A stretch of DNA of 64,000 nucleotides from Pisaster brevispinus (lineage: Eukaryota > Echinodermata > Asteroidea > Forcipulatida > Asteriidae): the NCBI GenBank assembly GCA_023634235.1, contig JAMKCF010000001.1:12720258-12784257 (forward strand), given 5' to 3'. Shown here one piece after another: positions 2,931 through 57,966 of the stretch. A program made the translations under genes and the position numbers. Every line of letters starts with the position of its first letter. Position 1 is the stretch's first letter. A model generated the notes under the pieces. The model searched no databases, had not been told where the DNA came from, and worked only from the letters and a program-made list of their open reading frames with translations.

Positions 2931-2946
2931 CAGTAGGAACTCATAA

Positions 2947-3371
2947 ATGCTATTTCGTAGGAACGAAATAACACTTCAATATTGTTTTCTCTTACATGTC
3001 TCCTTACTGGCCTCATCTGAATATAATTTGCATACTGAGATAAATGAAACGGCATTTCATGGACTCCGTAGCAGTTAAAGGATTTCGAAGGAACGAAATA
3101 ATAATTCGTGGTAACGAAATGATTTTGAGGGAACGAAATGATTTTGAGGAAACAAAATAAATTAATTCGTTCCCTCGAAATAATCTATTTCGTTCCCTCG
3201 AAATAATAATTCGAGGGAACAAAATGATATTTCGAGGGAACGAAATGATTTCGAGGTAACGGAATACCAATTCGAGGGAACAAAAAAAATATTTCGAGTG
3301 AACGAAATAATATTGAACTTTTTTTTTACCTTTTCATTTTTTTGTTCACCTGTCCCTTTAGGGGCTCCGTA
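2947..3371. repeat. Right terminal inverted repeat and subterminal array of element A
   Basis: From about 3080 to 3310 there are many variants of a 16-20 bp unit built on TTCGAGGGAACGAAAT, in both orientations. Many form the near-palindrome TTATTTCG...CGAAATAA. The outer part (3311-3371) ends in GGGGCTCCGTA. The same type of array is found next to the ends of element B with different flanking bases, suggesting binding sites for the transposase; that role is inference. Confidence 0.65.
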
Positions 3372-15600: not shown

Positions 15601-18600
15601 ACAACAAATAATATTAAATATTTCAAACCGATCAGACATATCAAAACTTGTTACTAGAAGTAAAAAAGGTGGAAACTTCATTCATTACACAACAAATGCA
15701 ATGATGTATGGTCATGGCAGAGAAGACTTATAGCTTATTTCTAATCTTCATTGTTTTTATACGAAGAGCAACTTATCTTTCAATAACAAAATATTGCGCA
15801 GTACAGTAACTTTGTCTCAATAAAGCATTTTTAAAGCATCCCAAACAAACAATGAATACTCACATATCCACTTATGCCTTGTGTATCCCTCAATTGAGGA
15901 AATGCAGTAATGATGCTCTGAGCTAGGGCACTCTTCTCAAATGAACTTGGGCTGTGTAATGAGTATAAATAAACCCAAACATCATTATTTTTTACAACAG
16001 CTTTGCCAGGCAACCAGATTTTAAGTGTTTTATTAGAATGTGGAAAACCAGAAACTCAATGGCAAGTCTGAAACTGTATCAGCATAATTTTCTTGATGCT
16101 TTGTTAAAAAAACCTTCACACTATTGGTTCAGAGAAAAAAGAACAAATAACACATACATAGATTGAAAATTGTAAATGGGCATAGGTAGAACTTGACAAT
16201 AGTTGGAGCGATTGTGAAAGTTGTGCTGAGTGCAATAAATCTCCAGTTTTCTGTATGTTATGCCTAAATTGATCATCTTGTGTACAAAACCTCATAATTT
16301 ATTGTAAACAAAATGTTCTGTCAGTACTTTTCAATCAAAATTCCACAATGAAAGGTGCAAGTTCAAGAAATTAAAAAGGGCTTGTAACTTGTTTAAATGT
16401 AAATATAGAGAAAGTAAAACTTACTTCTTTCCACAAGTTTCCACAAGGTGCGACACAAGAATTGTAACAAGGGTATGGCGAACCTTCTTTGACAGGAAAC
16501 CTTGAGAATTTATCTGCTTAATGACATTTTTACCAGCTGTAGTTTGGTTGAGTATCACCAAAGCATCCTGTAATACAAAATTTAAAGCAATTTGTTACAG
16601 ATAGAGTTTTGTGTCATAATCATCCCCCCGTTTTTTTTGTAGAGGAGTGAAAAGTTATGTTGTTGTTTAAATATTTATGTTTTCTTTCTTTTTTTATAGA
16701 AGATGGTTTTCCCAAGTTTCTGTTTTATTTTTTAAATGGCCCCCTGTCAGCTCCTTTACTCTATTACAATTGTTATAGTTTATCTTTGCAAAGCACAAGT
16801 CACAGTTTAATGTGTTGTGCTCCCCCCCCAAACAAAAATAATAATAATAAAATAAAACAACAAAATAAAGAAATAAACAACTTAAAAAAGGCTGCGTACT
16901 CTGTACTTACAAACAAAACTGTTCTCTTGCTATGGAAGCAGGTGACAAAGTTGATTGTGAGGACACAAAAACATCTGACCTAAATGGATCCCATTGTGGT
17001 GAAGCTACACCAAAAAGGTCATGACTCCCAAAATTGAGAGTAACTGGAAACGTTGTCATCTGCACATCTTGTGGTTTATTTTGTGTACAAAAAATATAAT
17101 CATTTAAAATGTGCTCAAATGTGACTTTACACAACCGTATTGAGTTGTTTTCATTGTCACAGGCAATTTGCTACAGTTTCAAATGTAGCATAAGACCCCT
17201 TCCAGTTAAAATCAAAGGAAAACTTAGGGACCTTTGAGAGTTTTATAAAGTAGCTGAATTATATATAAACTGTATGTGGATATACATTTTTTAACAAGTT
17301 CAAATGACTTAATGTTTTTATATCACTAAACCAAAAAGGAAAATGACTGGGTAAATTTGTTAGATACATTTGGGTGAAAAAAGAACATTTTACTAGAGTG
17401 GGATACTGAACATGCAGCCTGGGGGTTGACGTGCCACTGCTCTACCAACTGAGCTAATTTTTAGCCCTGTTTATTGTCAATATTCTTTGTTCAGGGTGTG
17501 AGTCAGATGCCATAATACGTTAAGATACGTGTACAACCTGGGAAGAGGCAGCCAGGATACACATTAAGGGGATGCGGTTCCTTTTGTAAGAATTATTAAC
17601 CAAGGTTTACTTACACTTATACAACTTGAAATGGTGCTATTATATACCATGCTTGATCTGTTTTGCTATAGCATTTGGTGACATGAAGAGGACGACACAA
17701 ACACAAATCTTGGGGCTGTAGTACAAGTATCTCTTGATGGGATTCTCTCACTGCATACGAATGTCTGTGTCTGTTATAGAAGCTCGTCTACCATAAGTTG
17801 ACAACAAAGTGCAAATTGTTTTTCACTATAACGATGTGCTTGAGTTGCCCAAACTGTGGGCCACTATCATTCCAGTGAGTGATTAACATGCAATTTGGCT
17901 TAAACTGATAGGATTGAATACTAACCCTTCCTGACACAGTAATTGTAGTATCTATGGTACAATCAAGAGCAGCACAAACATAATCTGCCTCATCTAAAGT
18001 TGAAACGAGCACATTTAGTTGGTCACTGATTTCCACATCATAGGATAGGGGCTTTCTTAATAAGAAAACATAGCTCTGTTGCTGTTGATGTCTGTCAGCG
18101 ACAGTTTTTGCAATATTCTTATAATTGTTGCAAGCTCTAGCCCATCTCTTGAATGGTTTGTGTTTACCCTCCTTACGCAAGCTTGAATATTGAACCAAAG
18201 GCCCTAGCAGCCTTATCAGTCTGGGGTAGTGGACAATGAAATGGTGTTTAGGGATGAGGTGCCTATCCGGAAAGACTTCAAGAAATAAACGATGGTGATC
18301 CCTAATCAGTGCCTTTAGGACATATGTGCCTTCCTGGCTTATATAAGGAGCCATTGTTATCTTATATATATCCAAGAGAAGCAAGAACGGTTCCCATACA
18401 TCAGATTTGTCATCAACCAGGTCTCCAATAATTAATGGCAAGTACAGGGCTAAGCACTTCATTTGAGAAGCCTTTTGGCCACTTGAACCAGAAGGATTTG
18501 TCAGAGCAGATGGTTGGATTTGGCTAGGTTTGTTTTTTTTGTCTGAGAATCCGTAGCCAAATGCAGATACACGGTTATTCAGTTCTTCAAGGGTGAAATT

Positions 18601-21600
18601 GTCTTGACCCACAAGGGCACCTATAACCAGTTTGAATTCCAAGGGCATGACACCCTCTAAGAAATCATGCATCACATCAGGTGCAAAGTTTTGCCATACA
18701 TGGAAAGCACTCAAATTATTAAGCTCTGACCATCGCTTAATGCCTGTCTTTGAAATATCATCTACGGCAAGGTCTTCATTGAAATTTCCTTCATCTCTTG
18801 AAATAGACATATCTTCTACAAGTTGACAGCGAGTCAATTCCTTGGGGGCTCTACAAAACCGACATGCATAATTAGCAGAAAAGCTGTCAGTGAAGCCAAG
18901 CAATTCATGGATACCCAGGTTATCATCAATTACCTGAAAAAGGACAGGCCTCACTTTACCTGCATATGAGTCACATACAATCTCAAGCCCATTTCTCTCC
19001 ATATCTTTGAAATCTTTGACAAGTATTGAAAGTACCTTATCAATGCCATACTGGTCAACTATTTTTCGTTTTGCGCATGCAGCCAACAGAATATTATTCA
19101 AGGAAGACTGAAACTGTGCAGGTAGACAAATGAGGCTAACATAGAAGGCTGTTAGTTTGTTGGTTCCCTTTTTAGAGCCAAGAGGGTTTCCTGTCTCGTA
19201 GTCATCACTGTACAATAGTATGGGTATTATCAAATCATTACTCCCAGAAAAAGTTGTCCGATAATAGCTTCCATCACGATATGTCTCAAGCAAGAGAGCA
19301 TCTTGAGAAGCGTGTTGGTCCAAAATTGCATCCATTACTCCTGGCAGCTCTAAGTGTTTTTTGATGGTTTTGAGTATTGGGACATACTGAAAAGTATCTT
19401 TTTAAAGTTGTTGTCTAACCCCACCTGTTGTATTGTCACTCTGTGAAACAAATGATCTGCCAATAGATATGTCTTCAGGGTTGATCAAAACACCCTTTTC
19501 TTTGAAAAACTGGTTTTGTTGGGCCTGTGTTCTCAGTCCATTGAAGGTTTTTTTTTAACCTTCAAACTCTTCAAACAAATCCTTGAATTTGTCAGAATGC
19601 GTCTCTTCTATAACAATGCTGTTTTTCACTTCTGTCACCCTTTTCTCTAGATAACTAACTACAGTCTGAATCAATTCCTCGGTTTCACATATGACAAGCT
19701 CAATAGATGAGTAGGGAAAGAAGATGCTTTTATGTTGGCAATAAAATGAGATACTGCTTCAACAACATCATTTGTGTTGGGGTCACCTTCGTTGTCAAAT
19801 GCATACTGCTCAGTCCTATTTTCATCTCCCTCTTCATCATCATCTTCAAAATCGTGACTGCCAAGTTGGTCTCAATCTGATCCAGCTGCCTCAGAAGTAA
19901 CACGACCCATATCATGGTGCAATTTAATGTGGCGTTTATATGAGGAGATGTGCATAAAAGAAGACAGACATCCATTCTGTCTGCAAATTATGTGAGTGCT
20001 GCTCCCTGAGTGTAGGTTGTGTAAGTATTTCAAATGATTGAAGAGTTCGTTTATCCCACCCTCAATATCATGCAAGCACTTGAAGCAAAACATTGTTAAT
20101 AACTCACTCGTTCTTTTAAGTAGTTAGTGAACTTCACTCTTATTCCTACTTTTGGAATAAGCTGTTTAATATCTTCATCTGACAAAAGGGACAGAGCTTC
20201 AAGATCGATGCAGTTTTCTGTTGGTACAAAAATAAGCAAACAAACAAAAAGAAAAAAGTTTTTTTTTCCTCTTTGACATCTTAAAAGGGGTGGAACGCCA
20301 TTTTCTAAACCCTCAATAGACTGTGACAGTCTCTCGCGTACATGTGTTCAAATGTTGGGACTTGTTAAAGTATGACATGATTTTTTTGTTCTTTCAAATG
20401 TTAAAGCAAAATTCATGCGAGTCCAACACCATGTTCCTAGGGCCCAATTTCATAGAGCTGCTTAACGTCCGATTCTGTGCTTACTGCGCGATTTCCATTT
20501 CATATTGCTGCTAAGCACACGAAAAGGCATAATAACCTTCCGGTGCTTACTGTATGAACATGAATGACGTGACAATGCAAATCCATGGTGAACGCGCAAG
20601 ATGGCTGCCTCATTTTCTTGCTAACCTGTGAAATACGCTTAAGCAAATATGCTATAGTTAGCACGAAAATTTGCTTACTGGTATTGGGCCCAGGTCTTGC
20701 CCGCCCTATTCTGACTCCTTAGCTTCCAAGAAAACGTCCATCCCTAAAATAACATGCGAACAATTTCATTACCAAATGGGTATCAAATTTCTGAAATCTG
20801 TGTGTGTGTGTGTGTGCGGTAACAGTGTCCCGATAACAGAGTCTGTATTTACAATGCAGATTTAAACTGCCAAATAAGTGAGAACATTGTTTTTTATGAC
20901 TGGTCCAGCAAAAGTGTTTAGCTATCTGGGCCCAAAAGCAGCTAAACAAAACAAAAACTACACTTATCAGAATAAGGTTACAGTCCAAATAACCATTTAA
21001 ATTGTATGTATCTGTAACTGGTATCCTGCTTGTGTTTGCTTAACAGAGATCTTTTTTCTGCTTAAGCAGCTCTATGAAATTGTACCTTGTGGTCCATTGA
21101 AACATTTCTTTAAAACCACGCTCTCTTTTTGAAAAGGTTTATACGAGAGTTTTAACGATTGTGGAAGATTTCTTTTAAGCAAAACGGTCAGCAATCCTTC
21201 CAAATCTAACATTCTTGAACACGTGTACATCGCGTTGAAAGCTTAATACATTGTACGAGTAAAGTTTGTCAGGATTTGGCTTGATTTCATTATCCGTACC
21301 ACTAGAGAGCCCGAGTATAAATGCCAACGACCGCATCAGGAGCCCTTACAAAAACAACTTGTGCCTTTTGGAAACAGGAGGCAGTTAAGAGTTTATTTGG
21401 ATGCTCAAAGGGCTCTGGTCCAACTCTTAGCCGATATTAAAAATACAAATAAAAAAAGATGCACCAAGATTATTTCCAGAGGGCAGTAGTGGGGGAAACA
21501 AAGGACACGCTTTACGTGCACCAAATTATTTGGTTGAAGTACTGATATGTTAAACAATGATGATTGATGATAAATTGACAATTAACACGTTCAGAAGAAC

Positions 21601-27600: not shown

Positions 27601-30600
27601 GTTTAATGGCATAAGATTTTTTGTGAGGACGATGAACGGTTTTTTTTTTTTTCATATTCATGTCGCTCTTGGCATGTGCACATTTCCAAGAACTACACGA
27701 GATGTCTGCCAGAACTTGGCATTCCAAAAACTCCCATTATAAATATTGTATGGTTTGTCTCTATTTCAGGCTGATTCACATGCAGTATTTATTACAGAAT
27801 GGGCAACCAAAAAATACATGTAATAAAAACTCAAGTTCCTCCCTTCTTGAGCCATGCACATTCCTACAAAAAAGGATATACGCAGTCCTTGGATAATTCC
27901 AGTCAGGATTTGCGATATTTCTCCCCCCATTTATTGCATTTCTCTACATGTCAGGTATCAAGGAATACTTGATTAGATCTTGGGTCCCTTTACTATAATT
28001 ACCGCAACAGGAAAGGACAATTTGGGGCTTCACTTCCCGACGAGATTTGACAGAGCTTACTAGTGACAAAACAAGACTTTCTGCCGAGTGCCTGTTTTAA
28101 TTTGATTGCAGCGCTTTTCTTTTTTATAAACATTACGTCGTCTGATCTGACAAGATGTTGGCTAACGTTCACCGGGTTCAACGCTCAAATTAAATACTGT
28201 GAAAGACATTTTTAAAACATGGACAGCTTATGAAAATCCGACTGCTGCTAACGAATCCCAGGGGTGAGAGTCATTGCTGACAATAAGGTCTGAAACTAAA
28301 GGATCCAAATTGTAGGAGGTATGTTGAAATTATGGCATTTTCACCTTTTAATAGCCCCTGTGGTTATACAAAGATTTCAGGGAGCTTTTAGGAAAAGCAT
28401 CTTCAGGGCTAGAGGAGTGGATTCAAGAGCTGAATTTGATCATACCTGGAGAAAATGACATCTGATTTTCTTCGCCAGGCAGACATAAAAGTATGAATTT
28501 AGTTTGAAAGTCTATAACTTCTCATCCCTGAAATCAAGTAACATATAATGTCGATGCATCGTATACAAAATTGAAAAGAAAATCTACACGGGGTTGGGCT
28601 CGATTCGTAGGATACAGAAACTGTCAACACATCTCCAATGTGATCACAGAGAATGTACTATCACCACAACTTTTTGAGCGCTACATAAAATATCGAAAGA
28701 GGAAACATGGAAATCCAAAACCTACGGAGCCCGGGAGGTGACATCCCGAAAAAAAATTATTTCGTTTTCTCGTGGAAATAATTGTCACGATTTCGTTTTC
28801 TCGTGGAAATAATTGTAACTACGTGCGTCCTTTTTCCAAGCACGGAGTATTGGTGTGGGCCGGCCCTACGTGGGAACGAGATTGTGGAAACGAGTTGAAA
28901 TGCACATGGCCGGCGGACAGCACACTCTAGCTGCACATCACGGTACCGCACATCACAGTGTAGACTGTGTTCATTGCGTGTAGTCGACCAAACGTGAGTA
29001 TTCATTATTTCTTTCCTCCTTGTTATCATCATGGAGGTAGGAATCTCGGGTATCTCCATGGTATTATTTAGCATACACTTAAGTCATGAACGTTGGTTCT
29101 GTCGTTCTGACGTTGGTTCTTTCTTTCGACATGTTTGGGTTATAACTCATAACTGCTAGCACTCCCTCATGCGGGCTGCAGTGCAGATTAGATCCATGTA
29201 TGTGTAGATAGGATTAGGAATGGATCTATAGGCTGATGATAGGCTGTCTATTTTATTTATTTATTTATTTTTTATTTTTTTTGGGGGGGGGGTCTACACA
29301 AATCGCTCGTCGTACGGCTATGGTACTACCACCGCCACCGCCACCGCCACCGCCACCGCCACCGCCACCGCCACCGCCACCGCCACCGCCACCGCCCCCG
29401 CCACCGCCCCCGCCCCCGCCCCCGCCCCCGCCCCCGCCGGGGTTCATACTTTACAAAGTGCTTGAAAATGAAAGCACATCAGGCAGAATATTTCCATTAA
29501 AAAAAATTACCTTACCACCAACTTTTACCTAGTGAGTTTTATGTAAATCAGTGAACATTTTTGTTTTTCAAACTAACCACTTGTAGGGACTCTAAAATCA
29601 AACAAGTTCACTGATACTGATAAATAGTGATATCTTGTTTCTGTTTTACCACAGGTTTTAAACAAGGCTGTATCATGGCAGACCTCTTGATAAATTTTCT
29701 CAAGGAAAGAGGTATTGATAATGAAGAGCTTCAAGCTATTAGGGATGACAAGGTATTGAAGTGAAACTCTTGTTTTACATACTTTGGGAAATGTTTTACA
29801 TGATATCATAACCCTGTTTTTATGGTTGAATCCTCATTACCATTGGCGCCAATGGGCCTCTTACAAATTTTTAACTATTGAACCGTAACCTAAAATAATG
29901 CTCCTACCTCTATTGCAGCTAAACAGAGTGTTAACTTTAATTATTGTGTTTTAACTGTCACTACAGCTATTAATTTAATACTCTTGGTGTTGAGCCATGT
30001 TGGAAAAATTACATACTGTACACACATGCAATAAAGGATCAACATTTGGTGCATTATTATCACTCTGTTTATTTGTTACAATCATTTGTTTTTCTAGATT
30101 GACTGCAGCACACTATTGCTAATGGAGGACACAGCTATGAAGACTTACATACCAGCCTTTGGGGACAGACTGGCAGCAGTTTCATTTTGTAAAAAGCAAG
30201 AAAAAGTGCAATCCACTGAACCCACTGTGCTTGATAGGCTCATGGAGAAATTTTCCAAAAGAAGAAAGAACCCATCGGTTGATGGTAATACATGTTCCCG
30301 TTCCAAGGCAGCAAAAGGTAACACAAATGCCATGAAAAAGGACAGACGTATAGAACTGGGGTGGTTAGATTATGATGCGACCAATAAGCAATACAAGCAT
30401 GTTCGAAACCAGAAGGGAGGCGGTACCCGTCAACTTGTAATTAACAAAAATCTGGGAAAAGATGCAATAATGGAAAAAGGAAAGCTGCTCTTCTTTCCCG
30501 ATGGGAAATCTAAGATGGGCATGGTGGATGATTTCACTTTCTCAATGCAAGATTTCAGAGGCTGTTGTATGGACAAATCTACTATTGGCGAGCTGTACAG

Positions 30601-33600
30601 CCAGACTAGTGTTAAACTTCTTCGGCTGTATATCTGCACCAAGCGCCTTGAAGTGCAACAACCCTTATCTTCAGGTAATAGCTCATCTGATGATGGTAGT
30701 GATCTAAGAAAATCACCACAAATTTATACCAGTAGTGATCATGATGAAACAGAAGTACAGTTTGGGAAAACTTCCCATGCAAACCCTTTACAACTTGACA
30801 AGACACTTCCATGGGAATGTTCCCCAATCCAAGCTGAAGTGTACCTAGAAACTGTTGATCTTGATTTATACACAGAAGTTGTAGAAGAAGTTGTAGAAGT
30901 GCCTATTCTTCAAGTTGAGCAGGAGAAAGCAGATGAAGACTTGAGCTTAAATGATAAATCAACTGAAGCTGCCCAGCCAGAAGTACACACAAATGATTTA
31001 TTCACCATGGATGACAACTGCCTGAACATACGTCTCCATCGCATACACATTCAGAGGGAGATGATAGCAATTTTCAAGACCCCAGAAATAATTAATACAC
31101 CAATAAAAGTTTCTTTTGTAGATGAGGCTGGGGAAGATGCAGCAGGAGTATCAAGAGAGGCATATAGTGCCTTTTGGGTTTCCTTCTTTAGCACATCGGC
31201 AGATGGGGAAGATTGTAGAGTGCCATCACTATGTCCAGAGTACGGACTTGAAGAATTGCAATCTATCGGCCGTATATTATCGAAAGGCTACCTCGATCAT
31301 AAGGTGTTTCCCCTTCAAATGGCTCCAGCTTTCTTCCAGGCATTAATTGTTGGCGAAGAAACAGTATCAGCTGAAGACCTTTGTGAGTCATTCTTATTGT
31401 TTCTTAGTGATACTGACAGAGAAGCTGTTAAGTCAGCACTAGATGGTCATCTCTCCAACGACGACAAAGACGTTTTTGAAGATCTGCTTGACCGAGAGGG
31501 ATGCCATGCCATACCCAAGATGGAACAGGTTCGAACAGTTGTTATGCAGATGGCACATAAATGCATATACAAAATAGCAACTATGCTCTAGAAGCTATGA
31601 GGCGAGTCGTGCAAGACTCGCTGGCCAGTGTTTTTCCAAATGTGGAGTCCATAAAGTCCATGTACTCCGAACTGAAGCCCACGTCAAAGAAAGTTTGCGA
31701 TTTACTGCATGCCGATCCTCAAAACAAGGAACAGTCAATCGTTAAGATTTTTGATGCAATTCATTCGAGCACAGGACAGTGAGGGGCTTGCAAAACTGCT
31801 CAGGTACTTGACAGCCTCCAGTATCATCTCTGTATCAAGGATTTTAGTAGAATTCAAGGACATTACTGGACTTGCTCGCAGGCCAGTTGCACACACTTGT
31901 GGTCCGGTTCTAGATCTGCCATCCACATACACGACATATAGGGATTTCAGGAATGAATGGCAAGCAGTTTTGTCTTCTGGATATCTCAAGATGGACATAA
32001 TGTAGACCTACAGTACATGCAACTACATGTTCATATAGAGTACCGTGAACCCTCTTGCAACAATATACCTTCAAAAACACATTATGGAGTAAGTTAAGAT
32101 TTAAGAACAACAATATTGAACACCAACTAATATTGGAATTTATGCCAAATAGCTAACAAACATTTTTTTGTGAACCTTAAATTATTTGTTTAGTGCTACA
32201 TAAGTTTAGTGCCACACTACTTTGGTGTAATGTTTAGGTATATTTCATGGAGGGAAATTTATGGAACATTATTTTAGGCATTATTAAACTATTTATTAGA
32301 CTAACAAATGGGGTGCAGGTAGGGTACAACATAGATACACTGTATTGGCACCCATGTTTAAAACAAAAGGTTTTTTCTTAGGGGGGGGGGCATGGCTCCC
32401 AGGCCCATTGACGTCCAAGGATCGGTTTTCCTGAAGCTGTATTTTGCCATGCAAAGCTTCAAATCATATTAAAGTGATTCTTGTATACTGTATAACTATT
32501 GTTATAATGTTGATTGAGTATGTTTAGTTAAGCTTACATACAGTGTTAATTTCTTATAAAAACCGTTGTAATAAACAGTATTTCTTGTTGTTTTATATAC
32601 ACAGGTTTTAAAGCCATTTTGATTTTAAAGGGTGTGTACAACATTGGTAATTGTCAAAGACTAGTATCCACACTTGATGTGACCCAACATATACATGAAA
32701 TAACAAACCTGTTAAAGTTTAAGCTAAATCGGTCTTCAGAGTCTGCATGAGAAAACAGTGAAAAACCCCTAAATATGTGTTATAAAAATATAAAAAATTC
32801 AAACATCAGATTTTATCCTGCAGGAATACAGTTGTTTTACTCATTTCCTAAAAACTATGGCATTTCAAGCAAAACTATTTCAAGGGAAGTTTTCCACCAT
32901 GTCCATCTTTATACCATGTAAGTTATAAGCAAATCTGTGAACATTTATATTTTCAACTTTACAATGATGTGAACACCCTTTAATCTGTTATTTTCTTTGG
33001 CACTGTGTTTTTGTAATGGTTTCTTTACTTTTTAAATTGTTTCCATAGTTTTTTATCACTGTGTTCTGGGTTGAATTTCACAGATTTCCTGTGTGTTGGC
33101 TTTGATTTAGGTTTCACTTTTGCTTTTGGTCATTGATTTATAATCAATAAAGTTATTTGTTATTTGTTTGCTTGTTGAGAAACCTACATTTTGAGTCACT
33201 GTCCCACTTCTTGCATTTCCTCACGTCTTTACCCTAGTCGATCGTTAGATTAATTTAGTTGTTCTTAAGTGAGTTTCCCCAGCGTTTAGTTTTATTTAGT
33301 TATATTCAAGCGGTCCATTTTTACAGGTTACTTATGCAAAAGCTGTCTATGAAAAGTTGTATGCTGTAAAGTATTGTGGAGCCCATGGAATTGGGCCCCC
33401 CTTTTTAATTGTTGATAACCCCTTTTCTTTGTTTTGGTATCAACCTTAAACCCTTATATTGTATTTACCTGTAAGAAGGAATGGAATAACCCAAATGCCA
33501 CATCAGCAAGTGCATCTTAGAATTACAGGAAGTGGCCTTGGCTCATTGTTATACCAGCAATGACCCCGTCTACATGCTTTATAATAGTTCTGTATTCTTA

Positions 33601-36600
33601 CATCTTTGACTGATGACAACTTATTATTTCTTTTAAGAGTCATTGACTACATATTAAAGCGCCTCGTATAGGTTGTCATTTTTGATAGTCGTACGTGCGC
33701 AACAGTATGTCTTTTTTTTTTTTGGGGGGGGGAGTTATGCAAATGGGTACTAATCAATATCCCAAAGGGTTTCCTTCACAAAGGGACGAGATACAAATGT
33801 AGATGAATACTTCAATTTAATGCATATTGCACATACTGCATTTTTTACATTGGAAGTTGCAAAACTAAAGTTCATACAGACAAGCCCCTCGCTGGATACA
33901 CCACTGCTTGTTAATAATATGCCATTTCTATAGGGTCTGCGAGACTTGGATCAAGTTGTTGACTTTTCAGGGATTTGCCAAGAGAAAGTAAAATTTAGTT
34001 TAAAGCAATAGTATGGCAATTTGGTCTTTATTTCATTTACTCATGGATTTAAATGACATTCACTATTTACTTCTATATGCCCTTTATGTCTTTGAAGTAT
34101 GTACAATCATGATCTCTCCTTTGATGAAAAGCCGACACTTTTGTCTTACCAAATTGCAACCTGATTGGTCAAATTGACGTACGCGCAATTTGCATAAAGG
34201 CCAGCCCCGCTGCCCCGGGAAAAGTTAGCTTAGGCTGTATCCGAATTGTTGCTAAGGACGTCCTATACTTCAGCGCATGATGACGCGGAAATCTAGCCGT
34301 AGCCGTAGCTGTAGCCGTTAATTCGGACACGGCCTTACCTTCTTGGCTTACGTCCAAACTAAACAAGGGACGCCACCGAGGCAAGTCTTACAATAACAGC
34401 CAAGCGGCAGAGGGAGCTACTATCAAAACTGTCAGAGCCAGTGTGTTGCACAACGGCTCTGATACACAGCGGGGGTCATCTGCGGCGAATAATGTATTTT
34501 ATCGTTTATGCGATACAATAAAATATTGCCGTCATATAGACCCAGCTGGATGATGTTAGCACACTACTGCGATTTCACTATATAATTATTAATAGAATTT
34601 ATAGGACCCATATCATTATTGTCGCCGTATTGAAGATTATCCCATCAAAAGATGAAAATAAAACTAATTCCAACCAAAGGGCAACTACAGTTGTTGTTGG
34701 GGGGGGGGGGGTCAGGAAATATGGATAGGATGAGGGGTATGCCGTACTACACATACTCAGATTTCACCATATAATTGTATACATTGTCACCCAATATGAT
34801 TATTATAGCCGTAATGAACCGAACCCCCTTACAGGATTATTTCAAAAAGGGAAAGAAAGCCAGATTTCTATATCAAATTCAATATCGCCGTAATACAAAT
34901 GCCTCCCTTCAGGATGATTTTAAATTGGGAAATATTGTCAAAATTCAATGTTTATCTAAATATTACCGTAAACAGCGTGGCCAAATGGAGGATAATTTCT
35001 CAAAGGGATAAATATCATTCTGATTTTCATATGATTATTCATCTTCACGTCCTGACCTTATAGTTACCAGGGGTCTAGTTGTACACATCTTTCCTTCATA
35101 CTATTGGATACCCTTTACAAACCCTGTTCAATTGTATTCAGTGTGTACATGTCTACATATTTATAAACATGTCATCACTTATCAAAAGGCAATGAGCTTT
35201 TAATAACTTAAAACACCATGTTCATACGATATTTGAATTAGTGTTCACATACCAACGTTCTTTATTTATTATGTCCTTTTTACAATTGAACACTGCCGAC
35301 ATGTAACTCATTCCTTTTATCATTTCAAATATAATAAATTATTCTGTGCAACCTCAAATTTGTGTCGAATGACAATTAATTTGTAATTGCATTTACTTAC
35401 AATACTTTCTTTACATACACATATCAATATTATAAAATGTTAACCTAGACTCTCCTGAAACGCCCTCTATCGGCCATTACCCACACCACGTCTCCGCGCC
35501 TCCAGCTTCCCCCGTCTTCACGAAAGCATCATGCCCCCCCTCCACTGTCATGCACGTCTTCCCCCAAGCCATTGCCCACACCACGTATCAGCACCCTTCA
35601 CGACCTCACCACCCACGTCACACTTTGACTCCCTACGCCCCTAACAATTTATCTGATTGATTCATTCCTTATCAATCGCACAAAATACATTCCCACACAG
35701 TATGTATCGTACACTACATAACACTGCTTTTACCGAGTTATAATGTTTTTACCATTTCACAATTAAAGCCACTCACTATTTTTTCTACATACTTGACACA
35801 ACTATATCATTTTCATTTGGTGTATTTTTAATTGAATTTGAAATTATTGAAAAGTCACACAAATGAAGGTTTTGAACAAAAAATTGATTTGATTGAAATG
35901 TTGGAGTTTGACATTAGTTGCTATTGCGCTTGTTCACACACTGGTTCACATACGCAATTTATTAGTTGTGCGCTGTTGAATGTTGAATAGCAAATCCCAT
36001 TCCTCATGGGCGAACAGGTCTTTGGGGGCAAATAGGTTTTTTAGAGCGCCGACGCAGAATATGGGAGCAACAGTGAATGTCAATATGTCATGTGATGTGA
36101 GTTCCACCATTCAAATCAAATGACAAGGATCTGTGTCAGTTACATGTGTAAAATAATTTACATGTATATCATGAAACAAAATAAATAACAATCTGTGAAC
36201 ATAGTTAGCAAATGCTACTTGCTTTCATTGTGTAAAGAAATAAAGATCGATTGTATTCAAACTATAACACAAGGTTGTTTCTTCAATTCTTATGGCAAGA
36301 TTTGTGTTAAAGAAGACCTAAGGTAAAACCACCACGATCTCCCGTTGAAGATGGAGATACAAATCAATGGCTTGATAGACATCCATTGGTTCAGTTAGGT
36401 TGTCCCTTCTCATGATATCTACACACAACTCGTATACATCTGGGTCACAAGGTATAGTGGAACGAAATGTTGCTTTACTGTCGCATACAGTTATTTCTTC
36501 ATCACCAACAGAAGATAGCTTGTCTTCAACACCCCAAATCTGAGGTGTATAGTACATCAGGATGGGACGTCCACTCGGTACACGGACGTTCTTGGAGGGT

Positions 36601-39600
36601 CTGATAGTGTGGGTGTTCCACATTTCAACTGTCTGGTCAAGTTCTCCCTGTCAAAATAATAATACGATAAAAACCTCGTCATAGTAGCCCGAGTGAAATA
36701 TACTACTTGATCCCATGTGCAACTTGGCTGAATTTGTACTTCGCCGGGTACTGATTCAAACGTTAATGAATTCCAAGTCTCATGCACAAGTTGGTCAAAC
36801 CTCCTAAACTCCCCGAGGTACAGTATATTTTTGCAGCATGGATTATGCAGTTGTGTTAAGCCCGGTTCATACTTCCTGCAAATGCAAAGCGAATAGTGAC
36901 GTCAGAAACGGAGATTCGCAGCGAAACATTCGCAAGAGTTGAGCCCTACCCACTGTGAATAATTCACAATGAATTTATGACGTAACAATTAGCTTTGCAT
37001 TCGCAGGAAGTATAACCGGGCTTAGAAAGGCACAAAGGATATTCACAAAGATTGATTTAATTTGTAACGGTGACATACATCAGCTATGAGTTTTTTCATA
37101 AAATTACACCAAAATAAGTTTGCACATTCAGTTTTATGTACGCACCTACTCTCCACATGAATTGAGCTGGGGGGAAAACCTCCGCCCAAAAACGTGGGTT
37201 TCTATTCGAAAAATCATGTCACCTCCTGATGCTATGTGGGCATAGGGCCAAGAAACAGCCCAGCGTATTGAAACTATTTAGTATTTATGGGGCTATCGGT
37301 CATCACCACGGTCATTGGTTTGGTGATGCCCATTAGACTTTAAGACTAGAGTATTTCACCTGCATTAGACTCATAAAACAGAACTGGACGAGGTTCTTGT
37401 CCAGAAAGTCCCCAGTAAAGTCCCCTCTCTCCAGAAGGTTTCTGAAAATGTCAATCCAAAAGTGAGTACATTCTTTCCGCAAGAAACTCCACCAACATTC
37501 AATCCTCTGGTTAGCAGTGCTCGCTCCTTCTATGTAAACTCTTTCTCCTCGGTCATCGCGATGAAAGAATTGTTGGAAAGCACGAATATGTCCATTTTCT
37601 GTGCCACGATCACTGCGCACGATGCATGGACAACCACCGCATTACTTTACAGCTTCCAAAAAGTATCCTCCAACTACTTTTGGATCATTATTTGTATGAT
37701 ACACATTTAACCAAATGATTTGTCTTGAGTATCCATCTATACATCCACTGATGCACAAACCGTAAGGTTTTAACTTGTCGTAGCCATCGACATGCCATAT
37801 GTAGTTTGGTCCTTTGGCAAAATAAGCACGCCTGACAAGACGTCTGGCTACTCTTAATTGTACACCTTCTGGATCCATTGCTTTCAATATCAGTCGAACA
37901 TCTTCTTTTCTGACACGAAGGCCACTTTGTTGGCATTTGGCATACATCATTCGGTACCCATGTAGCTGGCCCGATCCCTGTAATTGATTCTGAATGAACT
38001 GTATGACATCAGCCAAATTGCTGTATCTTCTACGATGAAGATTGATTGACACCAACAGCCGCTTAAGATGTCTTTCACTTATAATTATGCTGTGTTGTTG
38101 TGCCAATACAAAAAGTATATCTTTGTATGCCATCCCAAGGTCAAAGTACATTTTAATTAGTAGATCACGACCAGTCTGTGCCATATTATTATTATTATTA
38201 ATATTAATAGTAAAAATCGTAATTATATACCTTAAAAGTTCAACCAAAGTGGTCCCAAAGAAGTTCAACTATGCGCGAGACTTACACGGTCTATTGTCTT
38301 TGGTGTTGTGGAATTTACTAGAAAACTACTTTCGCGAGAAAACGAAATTGTGAAAATTGTTTCCACGGGAAAACGAAATCTTGAAAATTATTTCCACGAG
38401 AAAACGAAATGTTGAAAATTATCTCCACGGGAAAACGAAATTTTGAAAATTATTTCCACGGGAAAACGAAATGTTGAAAATTATCTCCACGGGAAAACGA
38501 AATGTTGAAAATTATTTCCACGAGAAAACGAAATGTTGAAAATTATCTCCACGGGAAAACGAAATTTTGAAAATTATTTCCACGGGAAAACGAAATTTTG
38601 AAAATTATCACCACGGGAAAACGAAATTTTGAAAATTATCTCCACGGGAAAACGAAATGTTGAAAATTATCTCCACGGGAAAACGAAATGTTGAAAATTA
38701 TTTCCACGGGAAAACGAAATGTTGACAATTATTTCCACGAGAAAACGAAATGTTGACAATTATTTCCACGAGAAAACGAAATCGTGACAATTATTTCCAC
38801 GAGAAAACGAATTCGTGACAATTATTTCCACGAGAAAACGAAATCGTGACAATTATTTCCACGAGAAAACGAAATCGTGACAATTATTTCCACGAGAAAA
38901 CGAAATCGTGACAATTATTTCCATGAGAAAACGAAATAATTTTTTTTCGGGATGTCACCTCCCGGGCTCCGTAAAAACCGTCTCAAGAACATCAAAATGA
39001 AAAGTCTCTTTCCTTGAGTTGAACCGTGAAGGATCGTCCGGAGGATCTGAAAAGAAATTCCTCCCTCGTCCCTGAGATGCTACTTGTGGAGGACAAGTCC
39101 TCCCTGGACCAAGCCTCTGGAGGAATAACATTCTTGTCTGGATGACTCCTACAAGACAACCTCCAGTTGTGTCTTCAGCGTCTACGAATGACTCGGAATA
39201 CTTCACATTCATTCCATTGATTGTCTTCCTTCACTGCGCCATTAATCTTTAAGCAAAAGTGCATCTGCCGCCGCATCTGATTTATGTAGCACTGCTTTTT
39301 TAGTCTTGAGAGACATTCCGGGCTACCTTTACATTGTACATGTACAGTGTGCCAATTCATTATTCATTTGTACTGTTAAAAGATTTAGTTTGCGATAATG
39401 GCGATACTGCTGCTGACAGCAAAGTACGCTTAATACTCACTTTGAATCAAGATAAGGTACAAACATCATGTACGGCATTTGTAACGTTGGCGAACCGTAA
39501 CTGTTTGTAAATGTGCGTACTGTATGTTTGTCTTCAAACCACATTCTCAAGACGAGTTGTCTAAATCCACAAAATATTATTTATTTATTAATTTATTTAT

Positions 39601-42600
39601 TTATTACACATCCAACAGCACAATTAGCGGGATGAATATGAAATGAGAAGAAATATTCAGTTTAAGATGTGGGAGGAAAATCCCAATGGGGAAAAAACCT
39701 TCGCAATCATGTAGGGACTGAAAAACACAATACACATGCTCAGGTCCGCGATTCAAACCGGGGTCCACAGAGGTTAAAGGCAGGGAACGAATACCAGTAT
39801 TTACAACACAATTTTCATGCTTAGATTGTACAGACAACGGTATTTTGCTTTTTTTTTTCAAATATGTGTCCTGTATCATTTGGGTAGAGCTCTTCCCCAC
39901 TTCCCATCCTCCACATCTGCTTGCCCCCTCATTTTGCCTACTGTACATAGCATAAGTTCCCTCCTTACAATTTCCTTTACATTTTACAGTACAAGGCAAC
40001 TTTTATGACTTGGACTTTGTCTACAAAACGTTTTAAATATATATTTTTTTTTCCGGCACAATATCAAAGTCACAAAAAAAAGTCACTGCGCATAGCATGT
40101 CCAGAAACCTTGAAAATAACGTTTGTTAAACTACAGTAAATTCAGATCCGGCAAAATAGTCACTGCCTTTAAAGTATCTTACACCATGTATGTTGTCCCA
40201 TAGTTATGCTGGCAATGACTGCGCAAAAGATCTCACAAGTAGGCCTACATGACGTTGATGGACAACATTTTATTACGGGCGAGGGCCAAAATAAAAAATC
40301 ATTTCAACATTAAAACGAATTTGAGACGCAGGAAAGTTTTGGAATTTGTCCAGACATAGAATATTTCACCATATTTTAAGATAAATTAAAACAAATTATG
40401 GTTAAAAAGGCTAAGTAAAACGAAATACCAGTTGATCGTCCGTTTTTTTCAAAAAGGAGGATGAGGGCCTTTTAGTTTTTTATTTCTTTCGAATGTGTCT
40501 TTTTGAAAAAAAAAAATAATAAAATTTTAAAAAATAATAACTAGACACTAAGTGTTTGTGAACAAACACAAAGCTGTTCCGTTTTGTTGTGCTTTGATTA
40601 ATTGATCCAGACATTTAAAGTGAGCCTAAGTTCAAGATTGAACGATATGGTTCCATTTCCGGTTGACCCGGAATTAAAGGTCAACATGGGGTTACGGTAA
40701 CCCAAGGCTTATCTTCATTGCTCAAAGGGTTTATAACTGAAAACAAAGAAAATCGGCTCTGTAGTTCTTGAGATATGGTCCCACTTCCGGTTGACCTAGA
40801 AGTAAGATCAACATTGGGTCACGGTAGAACAAGGCTTATCTTCAATGCTCAAAGACTCTATTACTGAAAAAAAATTGAAAATGGGTTGTGTAATTCTTGA
40901 GTAATGATCCCACTTCCGGTTGACCCGGAAGGAAAGGTTAACATGGGGTCATGGTAACCCTAGTTCAATCTTTAATGCTCAAAGGATCTATAACTGAAAA
41001 GAAATTGAAAATCGGTTGTGTAGTTCTTGAGATATGGTCCCACTTCCGGTTGACCCGGAAGTAAAGGTCAACATTGGGTCACGATTTCCCAAAACTAATC
41101 TCCAATGCCAAGGAGTCTATAACTGAAAAAAGGTTTGAAAATCGGTTGTGTAGTTCTTGAGATATGGTCTCACTTCCGGTTGACCCGGAAGTAAAGGTCA
41201 ACATGGGGTCATGGTTACCCAAGGCTGATCTTTGGTGCCCAAGGAGTCTATAACTGAAAAAAGTTTGAAAATCGGTTGTGTAGTTCTTGAGATATGGTCC
41301 CACTTCTGGTTGACCCCTAAGTAAAGGTCATGCAACATTGGGTCACGATTTCCCAAAACTAATCTCCAATGCCAAGGAGTCTATAACTGAAAAAAGTTTG
41401 AAAATCGGTTGTGTAGTTCTTGAGATATGGTCTCACTTCCGGTTGACCCGGAAGTAAAGGTCAACATGGGGTCATGGTTACCCAAGGCTGATCTTTGGTG
41501 CCCAAGGAGTCTATAACTGAAAAAAGTTTGAAAATCGGTTGTGTAGTTCTTGAGATATGGTCCCACTTCCGGTTGACCCCTAAATAAAGGTCAACATTGG
41601 GTCACGTTTTCCCAAAGCTAATCTCCATTGCCCAAGGAGTCTATAACTTATTAAAGTTTGAAAATCGGCTGTGTACTTCTAGAAATATGGTGCTGCAAAG
41701 ATTAACTAGTTAAATATTCAAATGTAGCGCCCGGGACAAAATCGTCGAGCGCCCTGGGCAACAGAATCACGACGTACATGTACACATGCACAAGCCACCG
41801 TTTCAATACGCTATAGATCGATATTTTTGTATAAATAGTGTGCAGCGACTGGTACCCAGAAGTCGGCTATTTCGTTACGGCATTTCGCGTGCATTTTTCT
41901 CTGTGTCGCAGGGCATCCTGACTACATTTTTAGTCGATGAACGGAACCTTGTCTCCAAGCCATTGGTGTCCGATTTGTCACTGAATCGTTAATTATCGTG
42001 GACATTGTTCTACTTTGATTAGTTTTAATGACCAGGAACATTTCTTATTAAAAGCAATTAACTTTTCAAAACAGTTTATGTAATTTAGGAAACTAATTCG
42101 TAATTTTAATTGAAAATATCGTGTTTTTGACTGTCAAAACATTTGCCCTTTCAGCGCCAAGTGTTTTGTACACAGAACAAAAACGCGCCAACAAATGACG
42201 TCATTGATGACGTTTTATGAATTGTTTGCCACGCTGCAGAGCTACATAATAAGACGAGTCTATATTTGAAAACAGTTTGAGGATCAGACATATACTTCTT
42301 GAGATATGGTTGGAACAAGATTGCCTAATTAAATATTCATGTCATCATAACTCAGCTAATTAATGAAGAACTTGAACAATTTTACTCTTAGCATAATTTC
42401 ATGTAAGATCTGAATCTCCCATATTTATTATTTTAAAGCTTAGGTTCGTACAAAATCGTGTACAAAAGCTATGGCAATTTTGACAGAAACAAAGAATAAT
42501 AATAATAAAAATAATAATCCCAAGAAAAACAAAACCTGTTCCGACTGCTAAGTCGGAACAGCTAATAATAATAATAATAATAATAAAAATAATAATCCCA

Positions 42601-43859: not shown

Positions 43860-44179
43860 GTATTCACCCAATGTGGTTAAACTTTACCCAACTGATGTGT
43901 TTATTACTCGTTTTGGGGAAAGATGCCCAACGATGAGGCAGAAGAAAAATGTCTTGCTATATAATGGGTAAACTCACCTTTGCTATCTGAAGACTGATAA
44001 ATAATACCCCACTGATGTAGTATATTTACCATTTTGTTTAGTGTTTTTGTTTCAGTTAACCAACAGGGAAAATGTCACACATGTTGGACAAAGTATTAGC
44101 CAACAAACTCATGAATTATTACCTAGTTTGCCCATTTTCAGATTACCCATCAACTTCTTTGCCCTTCATTTTTACAGTG
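43860..44179. repeat. Right end and subterminal repeats of the giant CACTA element
   Basis: CACCCAAT, TTTACCCAACTGATG, GATGCCCAACGATG, AATGGGTAAAC, ACCCCACTGATG and TTTGCCCATTTTC precede the terminus TTTTTACAGTG at 44179. They are the counterpart of the left array. The start codon of the SAM gene (43800) is just inside, so these sequences may also act as its promoter region. Confidence 0.7.
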
Positions 44180-45735
44180 CACCCGGCGACCGCCTGTGCA
44201 ATTTACAGCAAACACCGGGGCTACAGAAGACTTCAGTTTGTTCTCCCCCATACAAATCTTCAAACTGTATTTTTGTGAAGCAGTGTGGCAGATGATGGTA
44301 GATGAGACCAATCGTTATGCTGACCAAACTTTGGGTGCGGGTGCAGAAAATCAGCGTGCTTGGAGACCAACTAATGTACCTGAAATGATGGCATTCCTGG
44401 CCGTACTTCTTTGCATGGGAATCAACAAAAGGCCTCGTTACTCCATGCATTGGTCCAGGTCTCAAATTCTACGAAGTCCCCTGTACTCAGCAACCATGGC
44501 TCGTAACCGATTTACTGCAATCCTTAAATTTTCCACCTCGCCAACAACAGAGATGTGGAGGACGACTCTTCCCGTGACAAACTTTCAAAAGTCCGCCCAC
44601 TGTTAAACATCGTACTACCATCATTCCTCCGGGTGTACCAAGCCTGGAAGAAGCCTTTCGCCGGACGAGACCATGGTAAAGTTCAAAGGACGACTCAGCT
44701 TCAAACAGTACATGCCACGAAAGGCCGCCAAATGGGGATTGAAATGTTTGTCATTGAACGAATCAGACACAGGGTACACATGTGCCTCGGACTTGTTCAC
44801 AGGATCGCAGCCCATGTCCCCACAAGGACAGTCCTCTGTAAGTTATCCTGAGACACACCATCCATCCGATCTTGGGGCACCAGGCAAGGTAGTCTTGAAC
44901 CTTTTGCAGGGACTCGAACATAAAGGACATTGCATCTACATGGACAATTGGCTTACTAGCCCGGCTCTGTTCTCCAAATTGTCGGAGCTTGTGGAACTGT
45001 GCGCTATACCACCCTAGGGATACCCGATGTTGCAAACCCCAAGAAGTTCCCCATGAAAAGCGGAGCAGATCCCCAATTTTATCAGAAAGCAGGCCAACTA
45101 TGCGTTATGTGGCAGGACACAAAACGTGTCACTCTCCTGTCAAACTATGGCGATTGCAGTGTCACTTGTAAACAGATTCGCAGCCAACTTCAACAGGACA
45201 TCATGATATCCAAAAACCGTGCATAGTCGACGATTACAATAAACACATGGGAGGCACGGATCTGGCAGGACAATTGTGCACGTACTATACTCACAGCCAC
45301 AGAACACTAAAATGGTGGAAACGAGTATTTATCACAATCCTAGACATCTGTTTGCTTAATGCTAATGTCGTATACAACAGCATCCATACAAACGAGAGCT
45401 TGTCTACTTTGGATTTCCGGGTCAAGGTGATAGAGGGACTTATTTCAACATTGGAGTACAACCCAGTTCAGCATGCCAGTCAACTGTCAAGTGGTTCAAA
45501 CGCCCTTTCAAGTCCGCACTTTCCTGGTCCGAATGTTGGCGGGAAGAAACGCGACTGTGTTGTATGCAGTTCGACCTCTAATAGAAAACAAACTCGCATG
45601 ATATGTAAACAATGTGTAAAGCCAATGTGTGTTGACCATGGAGGAAGGAAAATAGACTCTTTTCCTTCCTCCATGGTTATACAATGCTTTGAAAATTTCC
45701 ACACCAAGCGATTAATTTGTTTCAATACTTTTGGA
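44180..45735 (+). pseudogene. piggyBac transposase, core and C-terminus (split gene, part 2)
   Basis: Motifs in order: VDETNRYADQTLG, MGINKRPRYSMHWS, MARNRFTAILKF, then after frame changes near 44532 and 44641 RSLSPDETMVKFKGR (first catalytic Asp) and QYMPRKAAKWGLK. YMDNWLTSPALFSKL has the second Asp. After changes near 45003 and 45210 comes DDYNKHMGGTD with the third Asp. The C-terminus has the Cys-rich pattern CVVCSS...CKQCVKPMC. The DDD triad is present, but four frame changes and the 33-kb insertion make it non-functional. The 3' end is partly duplicated at 45765-45925. Confidence 0.85.
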
Positions 45736-45925
45736 ACACCTCCCCCCCCCCCCCCCCCGCTACAATGTTGGGGGGTAGAAACGAGACTGTGTTGTATGCA
45801 GTTCGACCTCTAATAGAAAACAAATTCGCATGACATGTAAACAATGTCTAAAGCCAATGTGTGTTATACCATGCTTTGAGAATTTCCACACCAAGCGAAA
45901 AATTTGTTTCAAAACTTTCGGAACT
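45540..45925 (+). repeat. Tandem duplication of the piggyBac C-terminal coding region
   Basis: About 45540-45735 and 45765-45925 share CGACTGTGTTGTATGCAGTT-like sequence through AATTTCCACACCAAGCGA. Copy 1 has an extra perfect palindrome (45635-45677) that copy 2 lacks. A run of 17 C separates them. Confidence 0.8.
45635..45677. repeat. Perfect 18-bp hairpin in the piggyBac tail
   Basis: ACCATGGAGGAAGGAAAA, 7-base loop, then its exact complement. It lies inside the Cys-rich coding stretch of copy 1. Confidence 0.85.
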
Positions 45926-45954: not shown

Positions 45955-46490
45955 AACATTGAGGCGGGGGGGGGGGATAGTACTTCGAAAGTACAAGTAT
46001 AGCACTTTGCGAATTCCTTATTTACATATTGGTTCATGAAAGGTGTAAATTTGTACAGCTCATTTCCTCCGACATTAAATGTGGTAACGAATAATAGTTT
46101 GGATTTCAGCAGTAATTTGGTTCCAGTTCATATTGTGCGTAATCAAACCTTTCTTTTTTTTCTTTAGGCAATATTTTTATATTGAATGATGAATCCTGAG
46201 AGCGCCAACCAAAGTTTCCAACATTGAGGCGGGGGGGGGGGGGGAGAGGATAGTGCTTCGAAAGAAAAACAATTGCACTTTTGGAATTCCTTATTTACAT
46301 ATTGGTTCATGATAGGTGTAAATTTGTACAGCTCATTTCCTCCGACTTTAAGGGTGGTAACGAATACTAGTTTGTATTTTAGCAGTAATTTGGTTCCAGT
46401 TCATACTGTGCGTAATCAAACTTCTCTTGTTTATTTTAGGCACTATTTAATGTTAGTTCCTTCTTTACATATGAGTTCATGATAGGTGTT
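45955..46490 (+). repeat. Tandem repeats of about 265 bp in the piggyBac 3' region (left block)
   Basis: Each unit has GAGGCGGGGGG, TTCGAAAG, TTCCTTATTTACATATTGGT and CAGCTCATTTCCTCCGACAT. Two full units and part of a third precede the LINE; the rest resumes after it at 50275. Confidence 0.8.
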
Positions 46491-46497
46491 AATTTGT

Positions 46498-47687
46498 AAC
46501 CATCTCCACCAGACGTTCCAGTCTGCTTACAAATCTAACCATAGCACTGAAACGGGTCTTTTACGTGTTAAAAATGACATCATGCGAGCCATTGACAAAA
46601 ATATGGCAGTTCTGCTCGTTGCGCTTGACCTGTCGTCTGCCTTTGACACGATCGACCACAATCGTCTGATTCATCGACTCTGTAAATCGTTTGGTTTTCA
46701 AGGTTCAGTTCTGCATTGGTTTTATGGTTATCTTGCGGGACGCCGTCAACGTGTTTGCATCTCTGGTGCTGTTTCTGATGATCAACCCGTTAATTTTGGT
46801 GTTCCGCAGGGTTCTGTTATTGGACCATTGCTCTTCACCTTTTACACTCAACCAGTCTGTTTCATCATTGAGAATCATAACATGATGTACCACATTTATG
46901 CAGATGACACCCAAATTTATACTTATTTCAACCCTTCAATTGCAGGTGAATCAGATCGAGTACTCAACAAACTCTTCTTGCATAACTGACATTCGACACT
47001 GGATGACTTCCAACAAAATGAAACTTAATGATAATAAAACACAGCTTTTCAATGCAGGTAACACGTGTCTTGAACGCACTGCCAGAAATTGCCCTTGAAA
47101 TTGGTAATTCCATCATTCGTCCATCTCCCACATTTAGAAATCTTGGAGTTGTATTTGACTCTACGATGTCCATGTCTCCTCACATCACATCCGTCTGTCA
47201 ATCTGTTAATTTCCATTTACGCAACCTCCACCGTATCCGCAAGTTCATTGACCACAACACCTGTAACCATGCAGTTCGCTCGCTCATTATATCTCGCCTA
47301 GATTACTGCAACTCTTTATTGTATGGTATCAATCAGGGTGAGATCACAAATTACAGAAGCTACAGAATCGTGCCGCAAGACTTATTTATTCTACTGATCG
47401 ATCTCACAATGCATCACAACTCATTACCCAACTACACTGGCTTCCATTGAATCTCCGTCTTCTCTTCAAATTACTTCTTATTGTATATAAATCCCAACAC
47501 GGTTTTTCACCCTCCTATCTTTCAGACCTATTGTTCTCTCACCACTCAGGTCGGGAGGGGCTTAGGTCTCAATCTGATACTTCTCGCTTACAAGTCAATA
47601 TCAACACAAAGGCAGCAGCAGACAAGCGTTCTCCATCGCCGGTCCAAAAGAATGGAACAAAATCCCACATAAAATTCGAGCCTCACC
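46498..47687 (+). pseudogene. LINE reverse transcriptase remnant
   Basis: RT motifs: FQSAYKSNHSTETGLLRVKN, LLVALDLSSAFDTIDHNRL (first Asp), VPQGSVIGPLLF, MYHIYADDTQIY (catalytic DD at about 46903). After frame changes near 46980 and 47060: MTSNKMKLNDNKTQ, NLGVVFDSTMSMSPHI and LDYCNSLLYGI, then LHWLPLN and YKSQHGFSPSYLSDL. At least three frame changes. The last 20 or so codons lie beyond the hAT insertion (50085-50139). Confidence 0.85.
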
Positions 47688-54363: not shown

Positions 54364-54836
54364 GGTCTAGTAACGGACCAAGACCTTATAAGTAGTTGTC
54401 ATTACTTGGGCTTTTCTTTATGTTTTTTAAATCCTGGTTTGTTATTTCTTGTTCATGTAGTTTCTTTCACAATTTATGCCTTTAACATTCTAAAGGAAAC
54501 AAAAGTTTAGCAGTAGTGTAATTGAATGTCAAAACACATGCCTTTAAATATTTCTGCAAATTTGAATGCAGTTTTGATCAACTGCTCAATTTGGTGGTTA
54601 TTTTGTTAAATGGAATGACTTAACAGCACTTTTGCCTAGTCTTAAAACAACTTTGAATAGCCATTTTCAACAGCATTCAACTTCGCGCAAAATAGATTTG
54701 TTGAATTGGCTGCTCATTTGCTTAAATTTACGTACGATGACATAAATGAACATCTTAAAAGGCACAATTATTAACCAGGATCAGGATCCTCAAAATTATT
54801 TTAACTTGATGTTTACATGTATGTTTTGGTTTAATT

Positions 54837-55135
54837 AAAGGGTGTGTACAACATTGGTAATTGTCGAAGACTAGTATCCACACTTTATGTGACCCAACAT
54901 ATAAATGAAATAACAAACCTGTGAAAGTTTAAGAGTCATGAGAAAACAGTGAAAAACCCCATTATGTTTTTTTTTTTTTTTCAAACATCGGATTTTGTCC
55001 TGCAAAACTGTGGCATTTAAAGCAAAACTATTCCAATGGAAGTTTTCCACCATGACCATCATTATACCATGTAAGTTACGTGCAAATCTGTGAACATTTA
55101 TATTTTCAACCTTACCAATGATGTACACACCCTTT
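54837..55135. mobile_element. MITE of the GGGTGTGTAC family, copy 2
   Basis: Ends AAAGGGTGTGTACAACATTG and, inverted, AAAGGGTGTGTACATCATTG. Interior matches 32627-32981. Confidence 0.75.
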
Positions 55136-57894: not shown

Positions 57895-57966
57895 GTGTCT
57901 GGTGGTTTAGTAGGTAAGACATCTGCTCAAGATTACAGCGCCTTGGATTTGAATCCCACTTAGGTA
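57895..57966 (+). repeat. tRNA-like sequence
   Basis: TGGTTTAGTAGGTAAGACAT (A-box-like) and GGATTTGAATCCCACT (B-box-like). Acceptor arms do not pair; probably a SINE head. Confidence 0.5.

Follow-up and report, generated by a model that had tools for sequence, protein, structure and literature searches.

A HECT-type gene as the convergent second gene of an IS3EU-type DNA transposon in Pisaster brevispinus

What is a gene resembling a HECT ubiquitin ligase doing inside a DNA transposon, and does it belong there as a regular second gene? The question is raised by a 10,251-bp element at positions 28723 to 38973 of a 64,000-nt stretch of the Pisaster brevispinus genome (assembly GCA_023634235.1, contig JAMKCF010000001.1, positions 12,720,258 to 12,784,257), referred to here as the window. 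Plain coordinates are those of the window, and C-numbers (C1, C2, C7 and so on) denote contigs of the same genome, whose assembly comprises 549.7 Mb in 512 contigs. The element carries a HECT gene and a transposase gene that face each other. Based on the convergent pairing of these genes across the genome, the retained catalytic cysteine and the ratio of non-synonymous to synonymous substitution rates (dN/dS), the HECT gene has long belonged to this transposon lineage as a second gene under selection.

The element is flanked on either side by AAAACC (28717 to 28722 and 38974 to 38979), and its ends match as inverted repeats at 93 of 94 positions. The sequence-only reading that preceded this analysis had defined a 94-bp end with one mismatch and this duplication. 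Both features hold, but only the first 36 bp form a true terminal inverted repeat (left, 28723 to 28758 on the plus strand, TACGGAGCCCGGG..., with the same start in the copies on C7 and C16; right, 38938 to 38973 on the minus strand, placed by comparison of the ends), the remainder consisting of two 31-bp units from a tandem array. Within the C7 copy, and likewise within the C16 copy, the left and right ends match each other perfectly over these 36 bp, yet differ at 30 of the 94 positions. The left subterminal array (28760 to 28816, plus strand) holds two units, at 28760 and 28791, versus approximately 17 in sister copies, while the right array (38338 to 38937, minus strand) holds 19.4 copies with a 31-bp period. 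The element contains 10 occurrences of the motif CGAGRRAACGAAAT and a neighboring element (within 1157 to 3371; see below) three; the rest of the window has none. To locate an uninterrupted target, the flanks were joined and queried against the whole genome, which gave three matches, two of them the flanks themselves. In the third, at C2:11375969-11376339, the joined flanks run uninterrupted through a single AAAACC, with 357 of 371 columns identical. This site is paralogous and not an allele. Since it holds a single AAAACC, the boundaries 28723 and 38973, as originally proposed, are exact to the base.

The transposase gene lies on the minus strand. Its first exon (37360 to 38184) encodes an IS3-like DDE domain (rva_4) and is joined across a predicted 712-bp GT..AG intron (36648 to 37359) to a second exon (36318 to 36647, GELDQTVEMWNTH...), giving a full-length protein of 384 amino acids. 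An open reading frame at 36560 to 36898 (minus strand) was rejected as exon 2: it sits in the predicted intron, and the frame from 36647 continues the protein. Pfam returns rva_4 with an E value of 1.7e-31 and rve with 3.9e-5, the latter below its cut-off; the NCBIfam IS3 match (E value of 3.5e-10) is also below that model's own cut-off. The residues D133, D192 and E229 of the previously proposed D133-x58-D192-x36-E229 integrase are confirmed, but a premature stop (37642 to 37644) interrupts the frame at residue 181, within the D-x58-D spacing. Among 20 aligned transposase rows, the D, D and E are found in 20, 18 and 20, respectively; of the two missing second D residues, one falls in a gap and the other is unaligned. 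No relatives were returned by scans of IMG/VR with both proteins or of GTDB with the transposase.

The HECT gene reads toward the transposase gene from the plus strand. A first coding exon (29675 to 29752, MADLLINFLKERG...), predicted from splice consensus and matched in the C7 and C16 copies, is followed by a predicted 345-bp GT..AG intron (29753 to 30097) and the main exon (30098 to 32005). A further putative intron of 661 bp (28994 to 29654) from the sequence-only reading would fall in the 5' untranslated part. The full-length protein has 663 amino acids. In the window copy its frame is disrupted by two frame-breaking indels, near 31,560 and 31,775, relative to an uninterrupted 637-codon frame in the C7 and C16 copies, and the gene is not intact, which the sequence-only reading had missed. 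Splicing was ruled out as the cause, the C7 and C16 frame being continuous at that place. The two convergent genes are present, but neither has an intact frame here. Given the transposase stop and the two HECT indels, this copy is therefore structurally complete without intact genes; it is a decayed member of its family, from which neither full-length protein would be expected.

The assignment to the HECT family rests on several comparisons. The C-lobe bearing AHTCGPVLDLP scores 23.4 bits by itself, slightly below the Pfam cut-off of 23.9, and the whole HECT region, with X at the breaks, reaches 30.7 bits against PF00632; the sister copies score 34.6 (C7) and 35.0 bits (C16). With a profile built from eight HECT loci, 53 distinct PDB sequences score an E value of ≤0.01, and every one of them is named as a HECT-type ligase. 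As in HUWE1, TOM1 and the NEDD4 family in PDB, the HECT domain is collinear and includes the catalytic HTC, whose predicted cysteine codon lies at 31898 to 31900 by position and alignment. In contrast to those ligases, the element's HECT domain is distant (best match HUWE1, E value of 8e-10), and its N-terminal half matches nothing in PDB. This half holds a conserved region, GGGTR..LFF..GKS.KG, whose profile has no PDB match and only weak, single-member Pfam matches. The label SAM-like/HECT, given earlier, survives in its HECT part; no SAM domain was found among the Pfam matches at an E value of ≤1. A single-sequence AlphaFold2 model of the 497-amino-acid open reading frame was discarded (mean predicted local distance difference test score of 38).

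The catalytic cysteine is kept in all 15 HECT loci that cover it (about 11 families), while four of the 19 aligned rows, which represent the HECT loci with sequence retrieved, lack coverage. Between the C7 and window copies, the HECT gene has accumulated 15 synonymous and 10 non-synonymous changes (dN/dS of 0.185; Fisher p of 3e-5), marking purifying selection in this one pair of copies. Because the HTC cysteine is conserved and the gene is under selection, we infer that the protein is an active E3 ligase.

The genome was searched with the element's end to find further copies. Twelve candidates were scored, and copy counts from this search are lower bounds. Among the matches listed, at least three complete long end pairs were found (window, C16 and C7), and all three full-length copies have their own 6-bp duplications and both genes. 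The C16 copy spans 10,749 bp with the duplication GAAAAC, the C7 copy 11,210 bp with GTGTAC; both have the uninterrupted HECT exon, and the C7 transposase splices to 384 amino acids. No similarity connects the three insertion sites over 500 bp of flank on either side. C7 and C16 are 99.74% identical across 9.3 kb, which argues for recent movement, and C7 and the window copy share about 96.5% identity over two long matching stretches. The same ends also bound at least two short derivatives without genes (725 bp on C11 with GTAATA and 235 bp on C13 with GGCGCC), and single matches to the end lie on C17, on C8 and at C1:16.02 Mb.

The pairing extends well beyond these copies. A transposase query of 180 amino acids gave 93 matches, merged into 80 loci, and a HECT query of 497 amino acids gave 38 matches, merged into 28 loci. 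For 20 of the 28 HECT loci, a related transposase locus is present at a distance of up to 20 kb, two of the 20 sharing one transposase, and the genes are convergent in every case (20/20). Together with the full-length copies, this agrees with the earlier proposal that the HECT gene is regular cargo. Uniform placement would yield 0.16 pairs; since both kinds of loci crowd on C1, a fairer expectation, by our own arithmetic, is about 0.6. When Pfam HECT matches are added, 56 merged loci result, of which 22 are paired (convergent in 22/22) and 34 unpaired. Many of the latter are multi-exon clusters resembling host HECT genes. Unpaired loci of the element's type, including C1:18975937, C114:96569 and C1:19567991, could be truncated, stand beside a transposase diverged beyond detection, or have been taken over by the host.

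Further complete two-gene elements, representing three more families, were found on C12 (14,871 bp, CTTAAG) and at two places on C1, termed C1b (12,937 bp, GGAATT) and C1c (10,960 bp, GACAAG). The scan for ends covered nine regions and found a pair in four; some other ends lie beyond the fetched stretches. Ten copies have 10 different 6-bp duplications, although for C12, C1b, C18 and C10 the scan itself demanded a matching duplication. Across the ten families compared, identity ranges from 19 to 56% for the HECT protein and from 37 to 70% for the transposase, a divergence so wide that the pairing must be old. As for the crowding on C1, this contig makes up 6.25% of the assembly and holds 17 of the 28 HECT and 28 of the 80 transposase loci (binomial p of about 1e-14). 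Possibly C1 represents a chromosome on which transposons build up, for instance a sex chromosome.

Termini, duplication and transposase were also used to place the element among known transposons. IS3EU elements have TA..TA termini and usually 6-bp duplications, as described in the main text of PMC10045372. The termini here are TACGG..CCGTA in four copies (window, C7, C16 and C1c) and TACGA..TCGTA in C12 and C1b; the duplications are 6 bp, in accordance with the single AAAACC at the C2 empty site; and the transposase is an IS3/IS481-like DDE enzyme that, judged by sequence alone, lacks HHCC. On these characters the element is of IS3EU type, in line with the initial guess. The 6-bp duplication and TA ends speak against Ginger1 and Ginger2, which are characterized by duplications of 4 to 5 bp and, in Ginger1, TGT ends, and no OTU or Ulp1 domain was found among the Pfam matches.

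The element thus shares its ends, duplications and type of transposase with IS3EU/GingerRoot, while the term HECT is absent from the main text of that study (PMC10045372). The second genes reported for IS3EU in the studies consulted are a fungal alpha-kinase and TET/JBP, unlike the HECT gene found here. In the fungal families described in the main text of PMC12730594, the alpha-kinase and the transposase are oppositely oriented, and the TET+ families have TET/JBP placed between the two. These have an opposite-strand second gene, TAYGG..CCRTA ends and 6-bp duplications in common with the present element, but they differ in encoding an alpha-kinase and a TET/JBP dioxygenase and in having a fungal host; HECT does not occur in that main text either. 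Ginger1, as far as described in PMC2836005, is another transposon encoding a domain of the ubiquitin/SUMO pathway. However, this is an OTU/Ulp1 protease at the transposase C terminus, which hydrolyzes ubiquitin or SUMO, and the duplications are 4 bp, whereas here the ligase is a separate gene. The main text of Marin 2010 (PMC2837046) does not contain the term "transpos". No report of HECT with IS3EU or other DNA transposons was found in the literature, with Repbase and most subscription papers outside the search.

A sister family, termed family B and defined by the ends TACGAAAGCCCATTAG, contains copies with and without the HECT gene. Counts are complete end pairs among the matches listed. These comprise 18 pairs: three full-length copies (14,871, 14,286 and 13,870 bp), all with HECT, and 15 short copies of 2.5 to 6.6 kb, every one with a transposase match and no HECT match. 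The deletion was checked by reading across two short copies (on C10 and C18) and sampling the HECT side of 12 more in stretches of 2 kb; the deletion break points are identical in all 14. Of the 15 stretches fetched, 13 contain the break points, while in one of these (L065) 67 bp also match the deleted part weakly, and two (L069 and L073) were uninformative; HECT was seen in none of the 15. A TAG lies inside the transposase match in 12 of the 15 short copies and in none of the other three, and its position is shared by the three short copies compared. That HECT-less copies spread means that HECT is not needed in cis. They have probably done so with transposase supplied in trans. The TAG makes it likely that the short copies rely on others, and some of these also produce HECT.

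Taken together, the data point to a low-copy animal IS3EU-type cut-and-paste transposon with two convergent genes and a HECT protein that works in trans as an E3 ligase, a reading to which we assign a probability of roughly 60%. The transposase would bind the subterminal arrays, cut at the TA ends and insert with a 6-bp stagger. Each of the four families examined has such arrays, with a unit of 31 bp (window and C12) or 21 bp (C1b and C1c) in up to 66 copies, and unit sequences differ between families. The periods correspond to approximately three and two helix turns, which would fit in-phase protein binding. The HECT protein would load ubiquitin on its cysteine and, acting in trans, modify some protein that keeps the element in check. 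The likeliest candidates are host factors for silencing or repair, or else the transposase. With HECT acting in trans, copies that lost it could spread as long as full-length ones exist. It is an even bet that, within an animal IS3EU branch, the HECT gene is a core second gene under selection, working in trans for transposition or against host control, and that derivatives keeping only the transposase parasitize the two-gene elements.

Several observations weigh against the reading of a selected, trans-acting ligase. Eight of the 28 HECT loci are unpaired, and of the 80 transposase loci only 22 are, at up to 20 kb, the closest one to some HECT locus. The two genes co-diverge weakly (Spearman 0.42; permutation p of 0.044). 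The dN/dS value comes from a single comparison in which one copy is decayed, the three synonymous and six non-synonymous changes between the C7 and window transposases are not informative, and the GT splice donor of the transposase is lost in C16. Finally, family B has 15 HECT-less copies against three full-length ones. This excess would also be expected if HECT were a brake that ubiquitinates and removes the transposase to limit self-damage, with the HECT-less copies as escapers, and their ends, 98 to 100% identical to the query, indicate recent spread. However, shorter elements may move better anyway, and 12 of the 15 short copies carry the TAG that makes them probable dependents of other copies. 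The ratio itself fits a helper, a brake and a plain advantage of short elements alike, and we consider the brake unlikely.

Transposons capture genes, and many HECT matches in the genome contain stops, as would be the case for a host gene taken up passively and of no function to the element. Against such a passenger stand the same convergent pair in ten diverged families, the cysteine retained without exception and the selection measured in one pair, which leave it very little probability. Purifying selection is silent on who benefits, and together with the unpaired loci this would allow the HECT gene to serve the host, either as cargo or in the course of domestication. Yet the copies under selection sit in recently moved elements, and no stand-alone conserved host copy was identified, other species not having been searched; service to the host therefore appears improbable, if slightly less so than passive capture. 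If the preferred reading of a trans-acting ligase is correct, this transposon would attach ubiquitin instead of removing it, by means of a separate ligase gene that diverged families have kept next to the transposase. HECT-plus and HECT-minus elements whose ends are almost identical occur naturally in one genome, which makes the role of HECT testable in a matched comparison. Moreover, what is annotated in animal genomes as a HECT gene or an E3-ligase-like gene may in some cases belong to a transposon.

The window also contains the right part (1 to 3371) of the diverged C1c element (C1:12712669-12723628), which lies only 25 kb from the main element and shows HECT matches at 73 to 460 and its 21-bp array at 3082 to 3314. 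The segment 1157 to 3371 was rejected as a separate short non-autonomous element: its sides share no duplication, and 3371 is the right end of the 10,960-bp element. Nested between the HECT and transposase genes of the main element is a small non-autonomous element with inverted repeats and TTAA flanks (32625 to 32983), of which a second copy lies at about 54835 to 55140. Pieces of a DDE_Tnp_1_7 transposase, which we take to be of piggyBac type, occur in separate open reading frames at 44127 to 45810, and reverse-transcriptase fragments (RVT_1) at 4786 to 5640 and 46486 to 46986. Long open reading frames are present at 17788 to 19401, 57907 to 59032 and 60037 to 61968 (minus strand); Pfam gave no match at an E value of ≤0.01 for 17791 to 19401, 57910 to 58536 and 60943 to 61968. 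The frames at 17788 to 19401 and 60940 to 61968 appear related by eye and may belong to another large transposon with a second gene. A 130-bp tandem repeat of about eight copies occupies 40644 to 41691.

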